DNA from: a virus
Direction: 5' to 3' (one strand)
Length of the DNA: 31,388 nt
Virus record (IMG/VR): IMGVR_UViG_3300020187_000130
Location: 1-31,388 of that record
The position numbers and the translations under genes are program-made. The notes under the pieces were generated by a model, which worked only from the letters and a program-made list of their open reading frames with translations, was not told the origin of the DNA and did no database searches. Positions 8,109 through 31,388 of the stretch are shown in pieces; positions within the stretch are counted from its first letter, which is position 1, and each line of letters starts with the position of its first letter.

Positions 8109-11100
8109 TTAAACCTGTAATGCGTATGCTCTGAGACCAGAACTCTTAGGAATTTTTGCAGTATTGTCACTGAGGTGAACAATCTTTATTGCAAAATCTT
8201 TATATCCTTTAAATGTAATTGTCGAAATAGTTACAGTACCAGCAGTCGCTCCAGTTCCATCTCCGCCAGTGAGTGTAGCACTTACAGTACCCGTATCGTA
8301 TCCACGACCAGGATTTGTAATTTTAATTTCAGACACCTCGCCCGCCCCATTTACGACAGCTACAGCAGTTGCACCGTATCCAGTTCCTGCCGAGTGAGTT
8401 AATGTTACTATTGGCTCGCCGCCTTGAGTATATCCAGTACCACCAGCACTGACTGCAATGTTGCTAATCCTACGAACATCATACTCATAAACGCCAGTAC
8501 TACTATCTGTGCCGTATGAGTTTGAACCCTTTGCAGGAATCTTATAAACATACTGTGCAAAATTTTCATTTCTAACTTTAGGAGAAGTTTCAATTTCTAG
8601 TTTGTGCCAGAAAATATCATTTACAAATTCAGCATCGTCTTCTGCATTTCTAAACTTACCGTAAACTTCTACGTCAGCACCTGCGGGGATTTTGTTGTCT
8701 AGGAATACTCTCATATCTTCAGCATCTTGTTTGTCTGCAAGAACTACTTGACGAGAAATATATTTAGCAGATGCATTGCCACCAAATCTGACACTTTCAG
8801 TCACTGGACTTGGATTGTTTATTTTATTTTTGTACATACCCATAGACATTCCAGCAAGATCAACTATCGGGCTAAGATTGTTTAAAGGAGTATTCAATGT
8901 AAATTTAACAAGAGAAGTTTTATTTCCTGCATAATTTCTTTGCTCATTGGAATAGCTGTAAATTGTCTTCTCTTCTTCCAATTCAACTGTTGCATTTGTC
9001 TGCAACGAAGTATGTGTAGTGTTAGCAGAAGCCGCAGCAGTTTTTGTTAGAGCGATACTTTTGGTTATAACACCTTTTTCATTTGGGTTAATCACAGAAG
9101 ATTTCAATACATATGCGTCAACAACTCTGTCGTTAATACTATCTATATTGACAAAATTGATGCCGTCAGATATAAGATCAGACGCTGTGAATTTTCCATC
9201 AGTAACTAGTATTTCCCACGTTTTATAATAAGAATCAAAATATGTTACTTGCCCCCTATTCAATTCAACACTGACTGTTGCTTGCGTTGCTGCTGAGGTA
9301 GGACTGCCAAGTGGTAATGTAATTGTAGGCGCAGAAGTGTATCCATTTCCTGGATTAGTTAGTGTGACTGTGGTCACAATCCCACCCGCAACAACGTATG
9401 TTCCCGCTGCATTTGAACCGCCGCCGCCAGTAAATGTTAGAGCATATGTGCCATCAGTTGCATATTCACCCGCAGTTGCTAATGTGAGTTTGAACCCGTG
9501 GACAAAAGAATTCAGATCAAACTTAGGAGCTTTTACTTTGCCATCAACTACTGTATCGTCCCATGTATTATTGTCTACTTTAATCCAATCAATATTTTTG
9601 TTAGCTGTGTTAAGTACATAATCTGTGTTGGTTTTAAATTTACATCTGTTGACCATAAACATCAAATCTTCTGATTGATGAGCAGACCAACTTCTGTCAT
9701 TAGCAGAAGTAAACAATACACCGCCATGCGCTTGCTTTGTAATTCTATTTGTTGAATTAATTTGCAATTCGCCCAGTTCTGCCACCCAAGCTTCGTATCC
9801 TGGATCATTGGCTTCTGGTCTGAGAACAATACAATACTCTGTATCATTGTTTAGATGTACAAGATGATTGAATCTAAATTTGGTTGATCTAAAATCAACA
9901 CTGCCGTCAGCATTTATTCCAGATGCGTCAACATCTGATCTTCTTAGGAATACTCTACCGTTAGGTACAACTTTTGCAGTAGGATTTCCATTGACAACTT
10001 CTCTAATTTCAAGAGTGACACCATTGTTATTTGCTTCGCTTGATATAGTCTTAAAGAATACGTCAATTGAAGGAACAAACATTCCTCCCGGCATTCCAGT
10101 AACATAGAAAGTTTGTGCCAATGGATCAAATATACAAATGCTATCAGAAATTTGCTGAAATGTCGGAATTTTAAAGATAGGTGCATGATCAAATGCAGCA
10201 GCTGCCGTTGCGACTATGGTATTGGTATTAGCACTTACTGTAGCATCATTAATCGTAGAGGAGAATGGAGTTGTGATCAAATCAACAGTAGCTCCACCAC
10301 TACGAATTAAGTTTTCGGTTGCAACCGCATATCTACCTTCAGTAGTAGTTACTCCTGCTACAAAATCGCTCTCATCTAGACCGTCGGCTACCAAAATTGC
10401 TCCATTTGATAGTGTCACAGTAGTTACACCAGATGCATCACCGCCACTGTTGGTATTTGTAGCAGTATCGAAAATAGAGACCTCAGTTATAATAACATCA
10501 TCAACTGCTTGGAGTAGAGTAACTGCACCAGTAGTAGTATCAACTTCTTCTACTACTTTTTTAGTATCAGTGGTTGGCGTAAGAGCGCAAGTAATCGTAT
10601 CAGTTGCAACAAGTGTGATTTCAGGATTCGATACAGGAGTACATGCAGCACTCGGCGCTTCTACATTATATGTCGTTCCATCATATCTCTGGTAGGTGCT
10701 TATTGAATTTCCAACTGTGCCGTCACCAACACCAAGGGCACAAGAACTAGTTACAAATACATCGTCTACTGGTATCCAATTTGAAACGCCTTCTTCCTGC
10801 ACAGTGGTGATGATAACATCACCTTTTTTTGTCATTGTTCTTCCATCTTCGCCAACTGGAAGTATTTCAGTTTTTGTTTCTTGTAGAGGAATTGCACCTA
10901 CTGGTGGTTCTGGCCATCTGGTAGTAACATAAGTAGTTTGTAAAGTTCTTTTAGTTCCATTTGCACTAAATATTGCTGACGCATAGGAATCAATTCCTGA
11001 TGCTACATTAGAATCAGTAACTTCAACTGTAATGTTTCCACATTTAAATTCGCCTTGATTTACGCTGATAGAAAAAGTAGCTCTACCGTTTGAATTTGAA

Positions 11101-14100
11101 GTTACGCTGCCTTTACTTATGCCGCCCATAGTAATCGCATGCACTGCATTTGGCATCAGACCATCAACAGTGCCACTTATACTAATAGGTCGAACCCATG
11201 CAGCAACTTCAGTATTGATAACTGAGTCGCCAGTAGATTCAGTAACTTCGTCTGGAATAGTTCCGTAGAATATACGAGAGCCAGTTCTTTCCCATGTTTG
11301 CGTATTTTTACCAGCAATCGTTGTAGTTATGTCGTAAAGTTGTCTGCGACCTGTCCATGTCTTTACTTCTGTTTCCCAGTATCCATTTGCTTCTTCTTTA
11401 GTTACAATATCAACTGAACTTGGTGATAAGCCACCACCGAAGCCTTTGGGTGGAATGCCTATTTCGCCTTCAGTTATAGTTGATGTCGCATTAACTATAT
11501 CTTCTGATACTAAATCCCATGCGCCCCATGTTTCTTTCCAGTCGCCTTTTATTTCTAAGTTGTCCCATGAACCCTCTTTATTTTGATATGCAGGCTCAGC
11601 ATATGCATCATCAAACCAAGAATCTTGAGATGGAGAAAGAGTCATCGAACCAGCAAATGGTCCTAGAATTGGAGGGGGAGGAGGTATAATAACCGTAGTA
11701 TCAGATATTGTAACACTAGTACTTAGAGTTCCTTTAGTAGTTCCAGCCAACCCTGTTAGCGTTAATGTAAGTGTTTCATCCACTGTATCAGCATCTGCGA
11801 CAGTATTAAAAGTTACTGATGCGTCTCCAGAAGCATCTAATGTGAAACTACCAGTAAGAGATGCTCCACTTATATCTGCTGAGTCCACACCAGATACTGA
11901 ATAACCTACTGTAGTGCCAAGTGGATTTGGTAGATTTAACACCTCTAACGATATAGTAACCGACTGACCTTCGTTGATCTTATCAGAAGAACGAATCAAG
12001 TTATAATAAACTTCGTTAGCTTTCGGTGGTACCGGAGGTACTACAGGTGTAACAGGAGGCGGAGGAATGATCGGGGGAGGTGCTGGATCAGGTATTGGAT
12101 CAGGAACAACCGGTAATGGCTCTGGATCAGCAAATAACAATTCACTAATTAGATTTTTTGTTTTACTAGCTTGTAGTTGTTTTGTATACACGGCTTCAAC
12201 ATATGGAACATGGAACATGTCGCCCGTTTGTCCCACTGTTGTATCGGTAGCAATTGGTTTAAATGCAATAATACTAGAATCAAATGAGGCTCTTAACTGC
12301 TGTCTCTTTAGATCCAAAGAACATTTATTGTCATCATGACCAACTGCCATGACACCATATGTATTGAATGCGTCTATCATTAATCCATTTTTAAATCTAT
12401 CTACACCAGATGCATCAAGGATTTCTAATGACTTAGATTCTTTTTCTAATAAACTTAAAGCAGTATAGTATTCAAGATTGGCAATTCTTTTTTCTAGTCC
12501 ACCGATATCTTTCATCGTATAACGCTTAGTTCTTACCTGTTCGATGTAAGCCTTTAAGTCTGCTCTTTTATAATAATTAGCAGCCTTTGGCGACAAACAA
12601 GGATACGGAGCAAATATACCTTCAGAAAGCGTCAGTGCATTATCCGGCACTGGTGGAATTTTTGGAAATTCAGCAGAATCTGAGGTCAATACTTTAAATT
12701 CGCCCTCTGCTGTTACTACTACCTTAAATGCTTGTGCCAAATAGTATTCTAGATTTGTATTAAAAGTTGCACTTGGTACTGGATTTGTTAATCCATTAGT
12801 TGGTCTATTGATCACTTCATTTGTACTAGGATTTGCAGCTACCGCATTCAACAGTACTGTTTTACCAGCTGCATCCGCAGCATCGAATGCTGCCTTGTCT
12901 ATCAATTCAGCGGTATCAATTACATACGGTCTAAAGTCTATGCAATTTCTTAAATCAATTATTCTACCTGAAGATGGATAATACAAAGGAATTTCTTGTA
13001 ACGTCATGTCTCCGCCAGCAATTGCAGCAGAATAAGAATCTACACATGCAAATGTTGGTCCAGTAGAACCGTCAGCAGAAATCATATAATCTAATGTTAC
13101 TAGAATATATCTTTTTGTTGCCAAGTCATACGCACTAGTAGCTTTTTGTTTTAATTTAGCAAGACCATAGTAACTATCTCTTTGTCCATTATCAACTATG
13201 AACTCATTTGTAACATTGACTCTATTGGTAACATAATCTGCATTATCAGTTGCAGTAATTGATTTAATTTTAATTAGATCAGAAACACCTAAGCAGTATA
13301 AGTTGCTAGCCAATGATTGTGCGCCGGTCGCTTGTGTATCAATTTTAACTATCTTGTCTTTTGTGTATGTTTTACTAATAGGATTCTTGATGCTGTTTTG
13401 TTGCATATTAACATACGCTTTAAGATCAGCATTGCCACCAGTAGGAGGAGATGAAAATGTTATTGACACTGAGCTTGTTCCAGAACAAGTTACCGTCACA
13501 CTAGAATCTGTTAAATCTACATATTCACCTGCCGCATATGTTTTTGAGCCAATAGTAAACGAGTCAACAGCAATTAGATGAATGTTGCTTGTTATAACAG
13601 AATCTAAAAGCGTTCCAGTTGCAAAGAAAAATGATTGACTACTAGGATCTGATGGAGATAATGCGACTACACCAGTGCTGCCGTTTACTTCGACATCAAA
13701 TTCGTCAATAAATTTAAAATCAAAATTATATGCGCTACTGTTTGCTTTTAATGTTTTTAGACTTGCGTAAGGTAATTCCCATACTAGCCTATTATAGTTG
13801 CCTTCTTGAATTACAGCTTCGCCGCTTACTAGTACAGTATCAGCAACTGCATTCGCAGTACCATTAGTATAGCTTATGCTCTTAACTTCTTTGAATGTGC
13901 CCCTCGACATTTTAATATCGTACATGTATAATCTATATTGCGCCGCAGCAGTTCCAGCATCACCAGAAGCGAGAGAAATATATCTAACTTTTGCCGATCC
14001 TATTTGATTTCCAGCAGCAATCGAAGTAGACGAAAAAGTTCCAGAAGTCACTGAGGTACGTGCAGTATCATACAGCGATACAGTTTCTCCACCGTCAACA

Positions 14101-15326
14101 TCCCAAACACCAGAATTCTCATTAATTAATGTGTAGTTTCCGTAAGCAGTTGATTGTGCTATACTGGTTTCAATTTTGGTGTCGGTAGGTTTATCTATAG
14201 TTATTTTCCAATCTTTATTTTTATTTTCAATTGGATATCCGCCAACATTTGCTTTACCAGGTGTAATTGCAAACACAAACTTATCGGCACTGCCACCTTG
14301 TGCAGCACTAAAGTGGCCTCCGTTACCATCTAGGGCAAGATGTTCGTGAATAACAGTTTGCAATCCAGTTATAGTATAGCTGCCATTTGCATTAAAAGCA
14401 GATTTAGCTATAGCATCGCCTACGCCTGCCAAAGGATTTGTCTTGATTTTGCTTCTTATCATTCCGCCGTTGCGCCAAGTTGCGTACTGATAGAAATTTT
14501 CTGGTAAAGCAGCAGTTTGATAATCGTATGATCTAAGAGATGCAACCAACTGAAGACGATCTGCTCCAGGTGCATTGTGGTTAAAAGAACCTCTAGCAGG
14601 ATCTAAAAGATCGCTGTAGCCTGTATTCGATGATCCGACTACCGCTTCTGAAATATAGAAACCAATATTTTTATCGGAAGCGATAACGAAAGGATCGATG
14701 AAAGCTGCAAGCGAGGTAGTTCTAATAAAAGACCCACGAGCATAAATTATACCAGGACTCAGTTCTATCTTCGGCGCTGATCCTTCATATCTCAATCTTG
14801 AGCCAGTAGGTTCCGAACCAGAATCATATGTGACAAAAGTATGGCCGCTAATCGTATTATTAAGAGAAACTACAGTGAGAGTTTCGCCGATAGCAAAAAC
14901 TTTTCTGGCTGTTCCTGCCCTGTCGTTGTAGTTGAGATATAGAGTTTTTACATTTGCGGTAGCTGGAGTTTCCTCTGCTCCTTGTCTAACTGCAAGTATC
15001 TGTGCCTTTAGTCCGGTAGTACTACCGATTACCTCAGCCCCGATATAATTTGAAAGGTCAATATTGTTGATTACAGTGCCACCTAAATCAGTGTCTTTAA
15101 TCTTAATATATCTAATAGATGAGACTCTCTCCTCACATCCACTGATTATTGCACCATCTTTTAATGTAAAGCTGGATAGTTGAGATAATTGATCGGACAA
15201 TAAAGTCTGAAGTTGAGTAAGCTCCCTGGCTTGCACCGCAACTCCTGGCTTAAACAAAATTCTAGAATAGTTTTTGTTACCGTCAAAATCGTCATAATAG
15301 GGGGAAGAATTTAAATTGAGAGCCAT
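8109..15326 (-). CDS. giant virion structural protein (DUF4815-type N-terminus)
   Basis: This 2405-residue protein is the largest in the window. The N-terminus, S-P-Y-Y-D-D-F-D-G-N-K-N-Y-S-R-I-L-F-K-P-G followed by V-Q-A-R-E-L-T-Q-L-Q, is diagnostic of the DUF4815 structural proteins of marine T4-like phages. A proline-rich linker lies at about residues 1065-1103, then an Ig-like, Calx-beta-type domain to about 1212 (N-E-G-Q-S-V-T-I-S-L, then D-E-T-L-T-L-T-L-T-G). A conserved block near 1742, D-P-L-A-Q-T-F-Y-V-T-G-M-P-G-G-M-F-V-P, is also seen in cyanophage virion proteins. Copies of a G-x-G-Y-T-S-A-P-type repeat occur near 1994 and 2299. It is probably a baseplate-peripheral or fibre-network component. 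It follows the gp8 gene by nine bases. Confidence 0.75.
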   Translation of the reverse strand: MALNLNSSPYYDDFDGNKNYSRILFKPGVAVQARELTQLQTLLSDQLSQLSSFTLKDGAIISGCEERVSSIRYIKIKDTDLGGTVINNIDLSNYIGAEVIGSTTGLKAQILAVRQGAEETPATANVKTLYLNYNDRAGTARKVFAIGETLTVVSLNNTISGHTFVTYDSGSEPTGSRLRYEGSAPKIELSPGIIYARGSFIRTTSLAAFIDPFVIASDKNIGFYISEAVVGSSNTGYSDLLDPARGSFNHNAPGADRLQLVASLRSYDYQTAALPENFYQYATWRNGGMIRSKIKTNPLAGVGDAIAKSAFNANGSYTITGLQTVIHEHLALDGNGGHFSAAQGGSADKFVFAITPGKANVGGYPIENKNKDWKITIDKPTDTKIETSIAQSTAYGNYTLINENSGVWDVDGGETVSLYDTARTSVTSGTFSSTSIAAGNQIGSAKVRYISLASGDAGTAAAQYRLYMYDIKMSRGTFKEVKSISYTNGTANAVADTVLVSGEAVIQEGNYNRLVWELPYASLKTLKANSSAYNFDFKFIDEFDVEVNGSTGVVALSPSDPSSQSFFFATGTLLDSVITSNIHLIAVDSFTIGSKTYAAGEYVDLTDSSVTVTCSGTSSVSITFSSPPTGGNADLKAYVNMQQNSIKNPISKTYTKDKIVKIDTQATGAQSLASNLYCLGVSDLIKIKSITATDNADYVTNRVNVTNEFIVDNGQRDSYYGLAKLKQKATSAYDLATKRYILVTLDYMISADGSTGPTFACVDSYSAAIAGGDMTLQEIPLYYPSSGRIIDLRNCIDFRPYVIDTAELIDKAAFDAADAAGKTVLLNAVAANPSTNEVINRPTNGLTNPVPSATFNTNLEYYLAQAFKVVVTAEGEFKVLTSDSAEFPKIPPVPDNALTLSEGIFAPYPCLSPKAANYYKRADLKAYIEQVRTKRYTMKDIGGLEKRIANLEYYTALSLLEKESKSLEILDASGVDRFKNGLMIDAFNTYGVMAVGHDDNKCSLDLKRQQLRASFDSSIIAFKPIATDTTVGQTGDMFHVPYVEAVYTKQLQASKTKNLISELLFADPEPLPVVPDPIPDPAPPPIIPPPPVTPVVPPVPPKANEVYYNLIRSSDKINEGQSVTISLEVLNLPNPLGTTVGYSVSGVDSADISGASLTGSFTLDASGDASVTFNTVADADTVDETLTLTLTGLAGTTKGTLSTSVTISDTTVIIPPPPPILGPFAGSMTLSPSQDSWFDDAYAEPAYQNKEGSWDNLEIKGDWKETWGAWDLVSEDIVNATSTITEGEIGIPPKGFGGGLSPSSVDIVTKEEANGYWETEVKTWTGRRQLYDITTTIAGKNTQTWERTGSRIFYGTIPDEVTESTGDSVINTEVAAWVRPISISGTVDGLMPNAVHAITMGGISKGSVTSNSNGRATFSISVNQGEFKCGNITVEVTDSNVASGIDSYASAIFSANGTKRTLQTTYVTTRWPEPPVGAIPLQETKTEILPVGEDGRTMTKKGDVIITTVQEEGVSNWIPVDDVFVTSSCALGVGDGTVGNSISTYQRYDGTTYNVEAPSAACTPVSNPEITLVATDTITCALTPTTDTKKVVEEVDTTTGAVTLLQAVDDVIITEVSIFDTATNTNSGGDASGVTTVTLSNGAILVADGLDESDFVAGVTTTEGRYAVATENLIRSGGATVDLITTPFSSTINDATVSANTNTIVATAAAAFDHAPIFKIPTFQQISDSICIFDPLAQTFYVTGMPGGMFVPSIDVFFKTISSEANNNGVTLEIREVVNGNPTAKVVPNGRVFLRRSDVDASGINADGSVDFRSTKFRFNHLVHLNNDTEYCIVLRPEANDPGYEAWVAELGELQINSTNRITKQAHGGVLFTSANDRSWSAHQSEDLMFMVNRCKFKTNTDYVLNTANKNIDWIKVDNNTWDDTVVDGKVKAPKFDLNSFVHGFKLTLATAGEYATDGTYALTFTGGGGSNAAGTYVVAGGIVTTVTLTNPGNGYTSAPTITLPLGSPTSAATQATVSVELNRGQVTYFDSYYKTWEILVTDGKFTASDLISDGINFVNIDSINDRVVDAYVLKSSVINPNEKGVITKSIALTKTAAASANTTHTSLQTNATVELEEEKTIYSYSNEQRNYAGNKTSLVKFTLNTPLNNLSPIVDLAGMSMGMYKNKINNPSPVTESVRFGGNASAKYISRQVVLADKQDAEDMRVFLDNKIPAGADVEVYGKFRNAEDDAEFVNDIFWHKLEIETSPKVRNENFAQYVYKIPAKGSNSYGTDSSTGVYEYDVRRISNIAVSAGGTGYTQGGEPIVTLTHSAGTGYGATAVAVVNGAGEVSEIKITNPGRGYDTGTVSATLTGGDGTGATAGTVTISTITFKGYKDFAIKIVHLSDNTAKIPKSSGLRAYALQV

Positions 15327-27626: not shown

Positions 27627-27634
27627 TATTTATA
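27627..27634 (-). promoter_or_regulatory. late promoter of the baseplate operon (TATAAATA)
   Basis: Reads CCTGTTATAAATAA on the minus strand in the 64-base gap between the GlcNAc-transferase stop and the gp48 start, 38 bases upstream of the gp48 ATG. It has the same TGT prefix as the copies at 22292 and 706. It separates the modification operon from the structural genes. Confidence 0.75.
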
Positions 27635-27653: not shown

Positions 27654-28604
27654 CTAATCTTCTGAGTCCGGTGTGCCAGTTGCATGAGGATCTATAATTT
27701 GACGAGTGAACGCTCTTTCTTCAATTATACAATTTATATAATCTACTCCAGAATATTCATGATATTTTTTTAAGTCTTCTTGCGATATACTCTCTAAGAA
27801 TTTTTTCCAATACACCAATCCCTTTGCCATCATATTCGAATAGTTATTCGTGACAGGATCGATCCAGTGTTTTGTTACATGATTATTTGATCCATCATAA
27901 TGATAGCAATGCATTTCTCTTTGGTGATATAGGTGCCAGCCTTTTATGAAAGATTTCAGTACCATATAATGTTCTTCGCCTTCAAAGAATATTCTAGCAT
28001 CATATCCAACATCATCAACCCACCGTGTAGGAGCAAAAAAATTGCCTGCAAAAAGATGAATAGCTGGCATCACATCATCAGTTTTTGGTATCCATTCGCC
28101 ATGTGCTGCTGGCATTCTGTTATGTTTCTGAAAGGTAAAATACTTAGCAGAAGTAGCAAGAGGGTTATTTTTATCTGACAGTTTATTTGGAATACCATCA
28201 GCATCAAGACTGTAATTGTGACATGCGGAGGTTAGAACTACTCTAGAGCTATTTGTTTTTTGCCTAGCAAGTTCCCAATCTTGTAATAAGTATCTGTCCC
28301 AGTCTTTGTCGTAAACAATATGAGAATCAACTTGATATAAAAAATCTTCATCTTCTATCTGCGCCGCATTTATTTTTCTTGCCCACACTACTCCTGCTGC
28401 GTATTCAGGATCAATTCTTTTGTATCTAATATTATGTTTTTCTATGAGTTCTTTTTCAATAGAAACCAGACTATCTTCTAGTTTTGTTTGTTCAAATATC
28501 CCAATTATAATTTCATTGTCGCCCGACTGTTCTTCTAGTAAGCTTTTAATAGTGTATTTCAGCAAAGGATCTCTAAATGATACTACACTAACAAATATTT
28601 TCAT
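27654..28604 (-). CDS. GlcNAc-transferase of the Skp1-GnT1 family (PF11397-like)
   Basis: This is a 316-residue protein. It opens K-I-F-V-S-V-V-S-F-R-D-P-L-L at 2-14 and carries A-A-G-V-V-W-A-R-K-I-N-A at 69-80, then Y-Q-V-D-S-H-I at 90-96, in which D-S-H is the family's metal/donor motif in place of DxD. F-A-G-N-F-F-A-P at 185-192 and F-E-G-E-E at 207-211 are acceptor-loop and catalytic-region motifs, followed by G-W-H-L-Y-H. This is the pattern of the GlcNAc glycosyltransferase family. In eukaryotes its founding member adds GlcNAc to hydroxyproline of Skp1. It is the last gene of an operon that starts with a prolyl-4-hydroxylase-like gene. It joins the upstream gene through an ATGA overlap. 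Confidence 0.75.
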   Translation of the reverse strand: MKIFVSVVSFRDPLLKYTIKSLLEEQSGDNEIIIGIFEQTKLEDSLVSIEKELIEKHNIRYKRIDPEYAAGVVWARKINAAQIEDEDFLYQVDSHIVYDKDWDRYLLQDWELARQKTNSSRVVLTSACHNYSLDADGIPNKLSDKNNPLATSAKYFTFQKHNRMPAAHGEWIPKTDDVMPAIHLFAGNFFAPTRWVDDVGYDARIFFEGEEHYMVLKSFIKGWHLYHQREMHCYHYDGSNNHVTKHWIDPVTNNYSNMMAKGLVYWKKFLESISQEDLKKYHEYSGVDYINCIIEERAFTRQIIDPHATGTPDSED

Positions 28605-29323
28605 TCTTTTTTATCCAGTTTAAATATTTTTCTAACAGAAAGAAATTTTCTGTAATATTGAGAGTCTCCCCCCAATATAGTATTTCTACTTTTATCTACC
28701 TGTTGATCAGTTCCTGGACCATAGCCAGCTTCTAAATGAGTATTAAGAAATGGTATAATATGTAAAAGTGGTTCGCCAGCTTTGATTATAATTTCGCACT
28801 TACGCTTAGGAGTACAAATCATATTAGCAGTAGTAAAATTTTTGTAGTCAACTACTCCTGGCCAAACATGTAAATCATTGAAAACTTTCGAATGAAAAGT
28901 AGCAGGAAGTATTAATGCAGATATATTTTTATTGACAAAAATGTTCCAAGGTGCACCTATATGCAGAACTGTCAGTGGAACGTCATCTTCTGGCTCAAAT
29001 ATACCATCAACAATAGTTTGATCCATTTTCTTGGGTAGATGAAACCCTCTCGTGCCTCTTTTGTTGTCTCCAATGGTACTTACTACTCCTGCTTTATTTG
29101 CTTTAATACGCATGTCACACCAAGCAGGTATTACATAGCCTAGTTTAGCATAGTCTACCATACCAGGACAATGTACGAATTTGTTGACACCATACTTCTC
29201 TATTCTTTCATCTTTTCCTAGCACAGGAACATCCTTTGCCATCATGATAGGAAAATCTAGATATGCATTTCTAGTTACGTCTACAAACTCAATGTCTTTT
29301 TCTTTTTTAAATATTGAAAACAT
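28601..29323 (-). CDS. unknown protein, paralogue of the upstream gene
   Basis: This is a 240-residue protein. I cannot name the family. The motif C-P-G-M-V-D-Y-A-K-L-G-Y-V-I-P-A-W-C-D-M at 52-71 matches M-P-M-L-D-A-M-T-L-G-Y-V-I-P-L-C-G-D in the gene at 29323-30051. A later G-A-P-W-N-I...L-I-L-P and L-H-V-W-P-G-V-V-D-Y also correspond, so the two genes are a divergent tandem duplicate. There is no signal peptide or membrane segment. It is encoded between the paralogue and the GlcNAc-transferase with overlapping stop/start codons on both sides, so a shared pathway is likely, but the activity is unknown. Confidence 0.55.
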   Translation of the reverse strand: MFSIFKKEKDIEFVDVTRNAYLDFPIMMAKDVPVLGKDERIEKYGVNKFVHCPGMVDYAKLGYVIPAWCDMRIKANKAGVVSTIGDNKRGTRGFHLPKKMDQTIVDGIFEPEDDVPLTVLHIGAPWNIFVNKNISALILPATFHSKVFNDLHVWPGVVDYKNFTTANMICTPKRKCEIIIKAGEPLLHIIPFLNTHLEAGYGPGTDQQVDKSRNTILGGDSQYYRKFLSVRKIFKLDKKE

Positions 29324-30051
29324 TATTTTCTTTTTTCTCTCAACTCATCAGTGTAGACGTTTATTTTATTGGATTGTCTTCTGTGTAAAAGATCAATATC
29401 TTTAAATTCTTTATCCGTCATAGGTCTAGTGACACACTCTCTAGGAACAGAGGATCTCTTTATAGGTATAGCTACAACCAATGGAGTGCCTGATGGTAGA
29501 AAGCCATCAAAATTGGGAGTGTGCCAAATAGCAGGAAAGTTAATTTCTTTTGGATATGTGTCAGTATCTACTAAACCTCCTAAACAGGTAAAGTGGGGGT
29601 TTGCGAGACTATTATTGACTAGAGGTATTATTAAAGTGCTCCAGCCCGGCGCTGTTTTTATCACCCAAGGATTAATAAATTTTACAGGAGGTGCAGGCAT
29701 TCCTGGAGCTTTTGGACCCAATTGATCTAGAGTGTGAAACTCTGCTAATTTAAGTGCATCAGGATTAAAAACTTCAATTGTATTGCAGTCTTCAGAAGAT
29801 TTTAATCCAAGATCACCGCAGAGTGGTATAACATACCCTAGTGTCATTGCATCTAACATTGGCATACATTTTTTTGCAGTCAGACCTTTTCTGTTTCTAG
29901 CATCACGACCAGTCATTGTAGGTGGTATGCTTTTAAACCAATCTGGCACATGTTTGTTTGCTGGCCTGGGAGCTGGAATAGTACCCTCAACATTTGGATG
30001 ACAATAGAACTCAATTATAGGCTTTTCTTTTCTCTTCAAAAAATTAAACAT
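29323..30051 (-). CDS. unknown protein, paralogue of the downstream gene
   Basis: This 242-residue protein is paralogous to the one at 28601. Notable pieces are P-N-V-E-G-T-I-P-A-P-R-P-A-N-K-H-V-P-D-W-F near 19-39, G-Y-V-I-P-L-C-G-D at 72-80, N-P-W-V-I-K-T-A-P-G-W-S-T-L-I-I-P at about 137-153, and G-T-P-L-V-V-A-I-P-I-K-R. Pro-rich beta strands suggest a compact beta fold, perhaps a small-molecule or sugar-binding enzyme; that is a guess. Homologues are, from memory, frequent in marine myoviruses as uncharacterised proteins. It couples to the oxygenase gene by TAATG. Confidence 0.55.
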   Translation of the reverse strand: MFNFLKRKEKPIIEFYCHPNVEGTIPAPRPANKHVPDWFKSIPPTMTGRDARNRKGLTAKKCMPMLDAMTLGYVIPLCGDLGLKSSEDCNTIEVFNPDALKLAEFHTLDQLGPKAPGMPAPPVKFINPWVIKTAPGWSTLIIPLVNNSLANPHFTCLGGLVDTDTYPKEINFPAIWHTPNFDGFLPSGTPLVVAIPIKRSSVPRECVTRPMTDKEFKDIDLLHRRQSNKINVYTDELREKRK

Positions 30052-30641
30052 TACGATTCTCTAGGTCCAGTAACCCAAGTCACAAGTGTATTTCTTTCAC
30101 CAGAAGTTACCGGTAAAACTCGGTGTGGCATCCAAGACGCAAAAAACAGGGCATCACCTTTCAAAGGTTTTAGTTTCTTAATCTCATCTAGATTGCCATT
30201 AGTAACTATTTCAAACTCGCCGCCCTCATAATCTTCTGGCTCATTCAAAAATACTACTACTGATATTTTTCTAGAATTTTTCTGCCAGCCAAAAAAGACA
30301 TCCCAATGCCAAGTATAGTGTCCATCAACTTTATATTTTGTATATTGCATGGGACCAAAGTCATCTACATTATATAAAAAGTGATCGTGGTTAGCTTGCG
30401 CTATAAGGTAGGACATTCTTTGATACAACCAATCAGTATTTTCATCATGGTCCATAAAGAATACATCTGAATCTCTTGCTTTTTTTAAGTCTGTGTCTGT
30501 GAGTTTACTACTGACGGTGCCTTTTTGAAAGCTCTGTAAGTCTTCTATCTCTCGTATCTTTTCGACTTCTTCTTCGGTGAATGCTCGGTTCATGTGAGCA
30601 TAGCATTCGAAATTGCCTATATACTTGTTTATTCCAGTCAT
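30051..30641 (-). CDS. prolyl-4-hydroxylase-like 2OG-Fe(II) oxygenase
   Basis: This is a 196-residue protein. The complete metal triad is visible: H112-W-D114 in G-H-Y-T-W-H-W-D, and the distal H173 in M-P-H-R-V-L-P-V. R183, ten residues after the distal His, is the 2-oxoglutarate-binding basic residue (S-G-E-R-N-T-L-V). The G-G-E-F-E-I and G-D-A-L-F-F-A-S segments are typical of the P4H/PKHD branch. The reaction is hydroxylation of a protein or small-molecule substrate using 2-oxoglutarate and O2. Family members are common in marine T4-like phages, where targets are not known. It is the first gene of the operon, 30 bases after a sigma70-like promoter -10 box. Confidence 0.85.
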   Translation of the reverse strand: MTGINKYIGNFECYAHMNRAFTEEEVEKIREIEDLQSFQKGTVSSKLTDTDLKKARDSDVFFMDHDENTDWLYQRMSYLIAQANHDHFLYNVDDFGPMQYTKYKVDGHYTWHWDVFFGWQKNSRKISVVVFLNEPEDYEGGEFEIVTNGNLDEIKKLKPLKGDALFFASWMPHRVLPVTSGERNTLVTWVTGPRES

Positions 30642-30670: not shown

Positions 30671-30699
30671 ATTCTACATCATATATAGACGATTGTCAA
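30671..30699 (-). promoter_or_regulatory. strong sigma70-like promoter for the 30641-27654 operon
   Basis: TTGACA (30694-30699) and TAGAAT (30671-30676) on the minus strand are separated by exactly 17 bases: a perfect -35 box and five of six -10 matches. The -35 box overlaps the stop codon of the upstream repeat protein. A start site would be about 20 bases before the ATG at 30641. This differs from the TATAAATA boxes of the structural genes, so early or host-polymerase expression is likely. Confidence 0.75.
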
Positions 30700-31388
30700 T
30701 TGCTTTTTATTACTACATTACCTCCATCGGACACAGTGACTGGATAAGTAGCTGAATCTGGATAATCATAATAAGATACTTTTTGTGGAGGTGTATAAGG
30801 TGCTGGTGTTCCGCCAACATTAGATCCTGGTAAGGTCACTCCCATTGCGCTTGCTGGTGCACCAGCGACTGCTGGCTGAGCAGAGTTATATGTTGCTACA
30901 TTTCCTCCGGCTGGTGCATTATAACTTGCTACATTTCCTCCGGCTGGTGCATTATAACTTGCCACGTTGCCTGCTACGTCTGCATTATAACTTGCCACGT
31001 TGCCAGATGTTGGTGCATTGTATGTTGCAGGATTTCCTGATATTTCTGGATTGTATGATGCAGGATTACTAGAAGCGCCTGAATTGTATGAAGCTACATT
31101 TCCTGGAGTGGGCGCATTATAAGTTGCAGGGCCGCCGTCAATTATTGCATTGTTTGAAGCTACAGTTCCTGGGGTGGGCGCATTATATGACGCAACCGTT
31201 CCTGGTGTAAATGTTGGTGCATTGTATGTTGCTGCTTCGCCGCCGCCAGAAACATTTCCTGAAGTAAATGTTGGTGCATTGTATGTTGCAGGGTTACCAC
31301 CGCCAGAAACATTTCCTGGAGTAAATGTTGGGGCATTGTATGTTGCTGCATTGTATGATGCAATAGTTCCTGGAGTATAGACTGGTGC
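30696..31388 (-). CDS. Asn/Ala/Pro/Thr repeat virion protein, 3' part (5' end outside window)
   Basis: The frame is open from the right edge to the TGA at 30696-30698, giving 230 visible residues. A GTG at 30998 could be mistaken for the start but the repeats continue in frame upstream. The visible part consists of repeats around N-P-A-T-Y-N-A-P-T and G-N-V-A-S-Y-N-A-P, with G-G-G spacers and F-T-P-G-N-V in the upstream units. The C-terminal 55 residues lose the repeat and end V-S-D-G-G-N-V-V-I-K-S-N. Such repeats are typical of fibrous or surface-displayed phage proteins. Exact DNA repeats are 33 and 57 bases long. Proline before Thr or Gly recurs, making it a possible substrate of the neighbouring oxygenase; this is speculation. 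No catalytic motif is visible. Confidence 0.7.
   Translation of the reverse strand, partial: APVYTPGTIASYNAATYNAPTFTPGNVSGGGNPATYNAPTFTSGNVSGGGEAATYNAPTFTPGTVASYNAPTPGTVASNNAIIDGGPATYNAPTPGNVASYNSGASSNPASYNPEISGNPATYNAPTSGNVASYNADVAGNVASYNAPAGGNVASYNAPAGGNVATYNSAQPAVAGAPASAMGVTLPGSNVGGTPAPYTPPQKVSYYDYPDSATYPVTVSDGGNVVIKSN
30901..30966. repeat. tandem 33-base repeat
   Basis: The segments at 30901-30933 and 30934-30966 are identical over the first 29 bases (starting tttcctccggctggtgcatt) and differ only near the end. 33 bases are 11 codons, encoding the G-G-N-V-A-S-Y-N-A-P-A unit of the repeat protein. Confidence 0.85.
31209..31345. repeat. 57-base period repeats in the same gene
   Basis: Near-identical segments beginning aaatgttggtgcattgtatg start at 31209, 31266 and 31323 (the third with one change, ggggca for ggtgca), a period of 57 bases or 19 codons. 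They encode the A-T-Y-N-A-P-T-F-T unit with G-N-V-S-G-G-G spacers. Confidence 0.8.

Follow-up and report, generated by a model that had tools for sequence, protein, structure and literature searches.

We analysed a minus-strand gene cluster at one end of a viral DNA fragment, the 31-kb IMG/VR record IMGVR_UViG_3300020187_000130 (31,388 nt; this whole stretch is called the window below). The cluster comprises the genes of an oxygenase (OX), two accessory proteins (P1 and P2) and a glycosyltransferase (GT), and is preceded by the gene of a repeat protein (REP) (Table 1). The initial annotation described a four-gene, overlap-coupled operon. The four open reading frames (ORFs) overlap at their junctions as TAATG (OX/P1), TAATG (P1/P2) and ATGA (P2/GT), but the unit includes a fifth gene, REP, which is located 54 nt upstream of OX and keeps this position in relatives. 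In comparison with the close relatives L004 and L005 (L numbers designate loci), the ratio of nonsynonymous to synonymous substitution rates (dN/dS) is 0.02-0.10 in OX, P1, P2 and GT, which points to purifying selection on each of the four.

Table 1. Genes and predicted signals of the cassette in the window.
Feature	Description	Position	Strand	Remarks
REP	Repeat protein rich in Pro, Asn, Tyr, Thr, Ala and Gly; C-terminal cap conserved	30696-31388	minus	ORF open at record end, 5' end missing
OX	Prolyl-4-hydroxylase-type 2OG-Fe(II) oxygenase	30051-30641	minus	196 aa, ORF intact
P1	Accessory protein with dUTPase-like fold, phrog_7084	29323-30051	minus	242 aa, ORF intact
P2	Diverged P1 paralogue	28601-29323	minus	240 aa, ORF intact; phrog_7084, 4.9e-22
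GT	PF11397, GT60-type glycosyltransferase	27654-28604	minus	316 aa, ORF intact
Sigma-70-like promoter	TTGACA-17-TAGAAT	30671-30699	minus	In REP/OX gap; 11/12 consensus positions
T4-late-promoter-like site	TATAAATA	27627-27634	minus	Between GT and gp48-like gene

The reading of OX as a complete oxygenase of the prolyl-4-hydroxylase (P4H) type was confirmed. OX matches PF13640 (4.4e-20) and contains the iron triad and the basic anchor for 2-oxoglutarate (2OG) as H112-W-D114, H173 and R183; among 26 OX relatives H112 and H173 are invariant, and D114 and R183 nearly so. In profile comparisons OX matched PiuC/PKHD (1.6e-19), bacterial P4H (3e-15) and PHD2 (1e-11). An AlphaFold2 model built from 26 sequences (pLDDT 91) fell within the P4H group. 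Its best fold match was the P4H of Pseudomonas putida (PPHD, 4iw3; E 7.6e-13, Z 20.8 over 179 residues, 3.0 A), and human PHD2 (Z about 20), the chlorella-virus enzyme vCPH (5c5t, Z 19.4) and the Dictyostelium Skp1-PHD (6t8m; Foldseek E 3.5e-12, Z 17.8) were also among the best matches. Thus, the P4H double-stranded beta-helix fold of OX is well supported by the model, and by family analogy its substrate would be proline.

GT was correctly recognised as a PF11397-like transferase: it matches this family in two stretches (8.4e-28, 98.3 bits versus a cut-off of 21), and its relatives in L025, L062, L161 and L125 also pass the gathering score. In an alignment of 19 sequences, D93-S94-H95 and E210-E211 of GT are invariant, and these residues may bind a metal or the sugar-nucleotide substrate. 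A sequence search for a relative in the PDB found none, matches in isolate phages are remote only, and beside the GT relative of phage XacN1 no oxygenase was found. The Gnt1 enzyme acting on Skp1 belongs to GT60 and is specific for hydroxylated proline (PMC6939170). We also weighed threonine as the acceptor of GT, with the Trypanosoma cruzi enzyme of this family as precedent; however, only 11 of 64 REPs show an enrichment of this residue.

To analyse the gene neighbourhood, viral contigs were scanned with OX, with GT (covering the best 80 of 278 related stretches) and with narrow alignments of the REP caps as seeds. The three scans converged on the order REP-OX-P1-P2-GT, which is syntenic in dozens of contigs of uncultured T4-like and related phages. 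REP is directly upstream of OX in 27 of 34 OX clusters (clustering at 80% identity); three or four further clusters have it at a distance of up to three genes (L126/L130, L128 and L092/L093; L092/L093 are on the same contigs as L230/L231, with a REP of 215 aa). In the opposite direction, OX is downstream in every REP locus that continues past REP, the exceptions ending at contig edges. The predicted co-occurrence of OX and GT was borne out as well, OX being present in every GT-seeded phage locus whose contig extends upstream, among the best 80 of 278.

Cyanophages commonly carry 2OG-Fe(II) oxygenases (PMC3037559; PMC12774648), and phage 2OG oxygenases similar to human EGLN3 are reported to be widespread (PMC12774648). 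In marine phages these oxygenases rank among the most widespread enzymes without an explained role; DNA repair or 2OG metabolism have been guessed (PMC3037559). OX and GT could accordingly be ordinary auxiliary genes, common marine-phage oxygenases and glycosyltransferases which share one variable region by chance. However, the gene order is preserved in contigs in which OX is only 41-55% identical, and in differing neighbourhoods. Since in addition the dN/dS values point to purifying selection on all four genes, we do not regard the operon as a product of chance; this explanation, already disfavoured by the synteny tests, is in our opinion hardly credible.

The cassette also occurs in variants. 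Six loci (L135, L155, L161, L165, L166 and L260) have the arrangement REP-OX-GT-REP-OX-P1-P2, and because REP-OX-GT thus occurs without P1 and P2, REP, OX and GT constitute the minimal core. In several phages duplicated REPs are accompanied by a second OX. L125 encodes a fusion of GT with a methyltransferase. In L221/L222 and L232 a PF03567 sulfotransferase lies between OX and P1 and GT is missing; a sulfotransferase or sulfotransferase-like neighbour is also present in L092/L093, which lack GT too, while L126 and, weakly, L128 have a sulfotransferase alongside GT. The replacement of GT by a sulfotransferase, seen in two clades, suggests that different groups are put on the fibre. Further observations concern single clades. 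Downstream of GT, one clade has a fatty-acid-desaturase-like gene and a weakly sulfotransferase-like gene (L045:13568-15542). A second, diverged P1-OX pair without REP or GT was found in the same phages as the cassette (L025:9104-10416, minus strand). Sister cassettes composed of OX, P1 and one or more tryptophan (Trp) halogenases follow genes for proteins of 900-1300 aa (L101:4857-9331 and L099:3519-9523), and in L099 a PF11397-like GT comes after the halogenases. These sister cassettes suggest that other phage proteins are modified by oxidation or halogenation.

In bacterial genomes, a scan with the single GT protein gave no relative, but a scan seeded with an alignment did, yielding 80 loci. 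In four of them, PF11397 and P4H-type (PF13640) domains are parts of one polypeptide (L271:1132-2997, L275:3944-11302, L301:1-4881 and L307:4241-9214). The sizes of these fusions include 621 aa (L271) and 2452 aa (L275); L275 harbours four GT and two oxygenase domains, and an AhpC/TSA-like domain is present in L275 and L307. In five other loci (L270, L281, L298, L333 and L343) a P4H-type gene is at most 1.6 kb from the GT relative. None was found farther away, most of the stretches examined reaching 7 kb, and L264 is a phage-like contig with OX-P1-P2-GT. The fusions strengthen the functional pairing of OX and GT.

The incomplete REP of the window is homologous to the complete 521-aa REP of L005; complete REPs of relatives have about 215-884 aa. 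They are built of an N-terminal cap (..LEKTW..G.GTTTFN.PGNI.IPYGRN..), repeats of the types VPGNLNYNPL, TNGPQNFNAP or ASYNTVPGNTNPTNYPYTP, a frequent central CP..[YF].C insert and a C-terminal cap (GVTFPGS..VSYYDYPD..YPVTVPPGG). In the repeat cores of 27 REPs (10,308 residues) we counted 16.6% Asn, 12.6% Tyr, 11.9% Ala, 11.7% Pro and 0.2% Lys, compared to 6.7% Asn, 4.1% Tyr, 5.0% Pro and 4.6% Lys in background proteins of the same contigs. Large tail-fibre-like genes (phrog_9017) are located upstream of REP cassettes and baseplate genes adjoin the cassette in the window; REP is probably a tail-associated fibre protein. Since no match of REP was found in isolate phages and those of GT are remote, no cultured phage can be named for the cassette. 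The closely related phage of L004 has REP in two separate ORFs of 232 and 176 aa (L004:6485-7909), owing to a frameshift, a repeat-driven rearrangement or an assembly error.

P1 and P2 had been annotated as two linked paralogues of unknown function. Their relationship was corroborated, as both belong to one PHROG with about 19% identity over the alignment, and the AlphaFold2 model of P1 (pLDDT 91) now points to a fold: it resembles dUTPases with Z 10.5 over 121 residues (3.3 A). As in trimeric dUTPases, the Asp of motif III is kept, in a VD pair (V161-D162) which is conserved in the alignment. Unlike in these enzymes, no Pfam dUTPase match was obtained for P1 or P2, and the Arg of motif II and the Gly-rich motif V were not recognisable by eye. 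Thus, P1 and P2 are predicted to be related proteins with a dUTPase-like fold and without the complete dUTPase motif set. We considered a true dUTPase function, which is possible for relatives near a halovirus thymidylate synthase or the phage FtsZ gene of L114 (PF00091 and PF12327; two P1-like genes lie immediately upstream, L114:4923-7371), but is not evident here. The neighbour genes suggest another role. In cyanophages as well as in uncultured phages, P1 relatives also adjoin genes for 2OG oxygenases and Trp halogenases. Because the neighbourhoods vary between halogenases, thymidylate synthase and FtsZ, the role of P1 and P2 in the present cassette is uncertain.

We propose that the locus is a self-contained cassette for fibre maturation, and assign to this proposal a probability of roughly one half. 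REP would be a long, repetitive and probably tail-associated fibre. The Fe(II)- and 2OG-dependent OX would hydroxylate residues of its repeats, most likely proline to 4-hydroxyproline (Hyp), with consumption of O2 and 2OG. GT would then move a sugar, N-acetylglucosamine (GlcNAc) according to the family precedent, from a UDP-sugar to the new hydroxyls. P1 and P2 would be accessory proteins, perhaps for holding or folding the trimeric fibre, perhaps for nucleotide binding. On the virion surface, the product would form a rod similar to extensins, with a high density of hydroxyl and sugar groups. Our results support the initial annotation in part, the co-occurrence of OX and GT and the placement of the OX model in the P4H group having turned out in its favour. 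It had left the target open between virion and host proteins and had missed the linked REP.

Proline is the favoured target because OX has a P4H fold, 61 of the 64 non-redundant REPs show a Pro enrichment of 1.5-fold or more, each REP contains at least 10 Pro, and the REP of L221 consists of 32% Pro with hardly any YN motif. Several observations weigh against the proposed pathway. Enzymes of PF13640 hydroxylate other residues besides Pro. Asn (61 REPs) and Tyr (58 REPs) are enriched as widely as Pro, and the REPs of L126, L128 and L130 have only 4-6% Pro at a background of 5%. No convincing match of REP to a curated structural family was found. GT is absent from L095-L097 as well as from the GT-less loci mentioned above (L092/L093 and L221/L222/L232). 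In bacteria about 70 of the 80 PF11397 loci have no P4H-type gene nearby, and the presence of PF11397 by itself is therefore no sign of a hydroxylated acceptor. GT60 also includes a polypeptide GlcNAc-transferase of T. cruzi (PMC6939170), and in virions of the chlorella virus PBCV-1 Hyp was sought and not detected, despite an active viral P4H (PMC7019647).

From the composition of REP it follows that Asn or Tyr could be modified. Instead of Pro, OX might hydroxylate the Asn (or Tyr) of the near-universal Tyr-Asn repeat; that hydroxyl, or else Tyr, Ser or Thr, might then be the acceptor for GT or the sulfotransferase. In 62 of the 64 REPs the motif [YF]N recurs five times or more, in REPs without Pro enrichment the Asn content rises to 24-26%, and the sulfotransferase swaps would fit Tyr, too. 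Nevertheless, prolyl hydroxylases are the best matches of OX in both folds and profiles, and neither the Pro-rich REP of L221 nor the regular presence of Pro in all REPs is accounted for; we therefore regard this possibility as rather unlikely.

Two other explanations assign a different target to one or both enzymes. OX and GT could modify a host protein similar to EF-Tu, in the manner of PPHD, or a phage protein other than REP, which would be a mere neighbour. The structure of PPHD, the top structural match of OX, was solved in complex with EF-Tu, and OX-P1 pairs without REP exist (the second copy in L025, and L101). This is difficult to reconcile with the strict adjacency of REP and OX, tested in both directions, and with the second OX accompanying duplicated REPs, and seems improbable to us. 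Alternatively, GT could glycosylate host lipopolysaccharide (LPS) or DNA, serving superinfection exclusion or anti-restriction, while OX would only stabilise the fibre, so that the two steps would not be sequential. Host-recognition clusters of marine T4-like phages contain many LPS-type glycosyltransferases (PMC7029224), and the REP-OX cassettes of L095-L097 do without GT. However, characterised GT60 members act on polypeptides (PMC6939170), and the bacterial OX-GT fusions and the minimal REP-OX-GT units argue for consecutive steps; we give this explanation, too, only a small chance.

The proposed hydroxylation and glycosylation of REP can be compared with known systems. Like the PhyA/Gnt1 pathway of Skp1 in Dictyostelium and Toxoplasma, the cassette combines a P4H-type oxygenase, whose model matches 6t8m, with a PF11397/GT60-type transferase. 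It differs from this pathway in being a phage operon with dUTPase-fold partners and with sulfotransferase or methyltransferase variants, and in the proposed substrate, a long repeat protein instead of a folded adaptor with a single target proline. Skp1 itself is eukaryotic, and among the neighbour genes examined neither Skp1 nor a PgtA-type transferase for sugar extension was seen. By analogy, the cassette would work like the first two steps of the Skp1 pathway without being a member of it. In extensins and arabinogalactan proteins of plants and algae, Pro-rich repeats are hydroxylated by P4H and then O-glycosylated (PMC7960765), as proposed here for REP. The likeness to these Hyp-rich glycoproteins would be one of function; the transferase family is another one, the phage proteins are cytoplasmic, and the repeats are built on [YF]N and P instead of Ser-Pro-n.

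The vCPH of PBCV-1 is likewise a virus-encoded P4H with the same fold and hydroxylates Pro-containing peptides in vitro (PMC7019647), but it originates from a eukaryotic virus and has no known linked GT60 or REP. Collagen-like fibres have been put forward as a substrate of viral P4H (PMC9301287). In the cyanophage clusters of syn9 (gp41-gp54; L013, 6768-16947) and S-CREM1 (ORF67-80; L012, 15302-24781), a P1-like gene adjoins several 2OG oxygenase genes, and genes for fibre or collagen-like proteins precede them. Unlike the cassette, these clusters have many oxygenases and a Trp halogenase in the place of GT, and neither REP nor a PF11397 GT was found in them. In the literature, with subscription journals mostly outside the search, we found neither a P4H-GT60 pair described for a phage nor a mention of REP.

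The locus also has candidate regulatory signals. The sigma-70-like site is a consensus match only, 19 promoter-like sites being present in the region versus 13.7 expected, and the evidence for T4-late-promoter-like sites is weak (7 in the window versus 3.9 expected). Probably, the site between GT and the gp48-like gene marks the end of the cassette. Downstream of it, the window contains T4-type baseplate genes (gp48-like and gp53); according to a baseplate protein, the closest isolates are T4-like phages of Synechococcus and Pelagibacter (approximately 37% identity). The structural region further contains a minus-strand ORF of 2405 aa (8109-15326).

It is conceivable, and in our opinion only somewhat less likely than not, that these phages make a true Hyp-rich O-glycoprotein, in which OX hydroxylates the repeated prolines of REP and GT adds a GlcNAc cap (in sister clades, the cap would be sulfate). 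This would be the first Hyp-O-glycosylation pathway of a prokaryotic virus, and free-living bacteria would have a counterpart of the Skp1 system in their P4H-GT60 fusions. The cassette provides the 2OG-Fe(II) oxygenases of marine phages with a concrete candidate substrate and a partner enzyme. To our knowledge, protein chemistry in which hydroxylation is followed by glycosylation has until now been known mainly from eukaryotes. If our proposal is true, hydroxylation-dependent protein O-glycosylation would extend from eukaryotes to bacteria and their viruses, and small hydroxylase/transferase pairs could be used for the production of Hyp-glycoproteins in E. coli. Last, it would suggest that O2-dependent chemistry serves phages to armour or retune their fibres.

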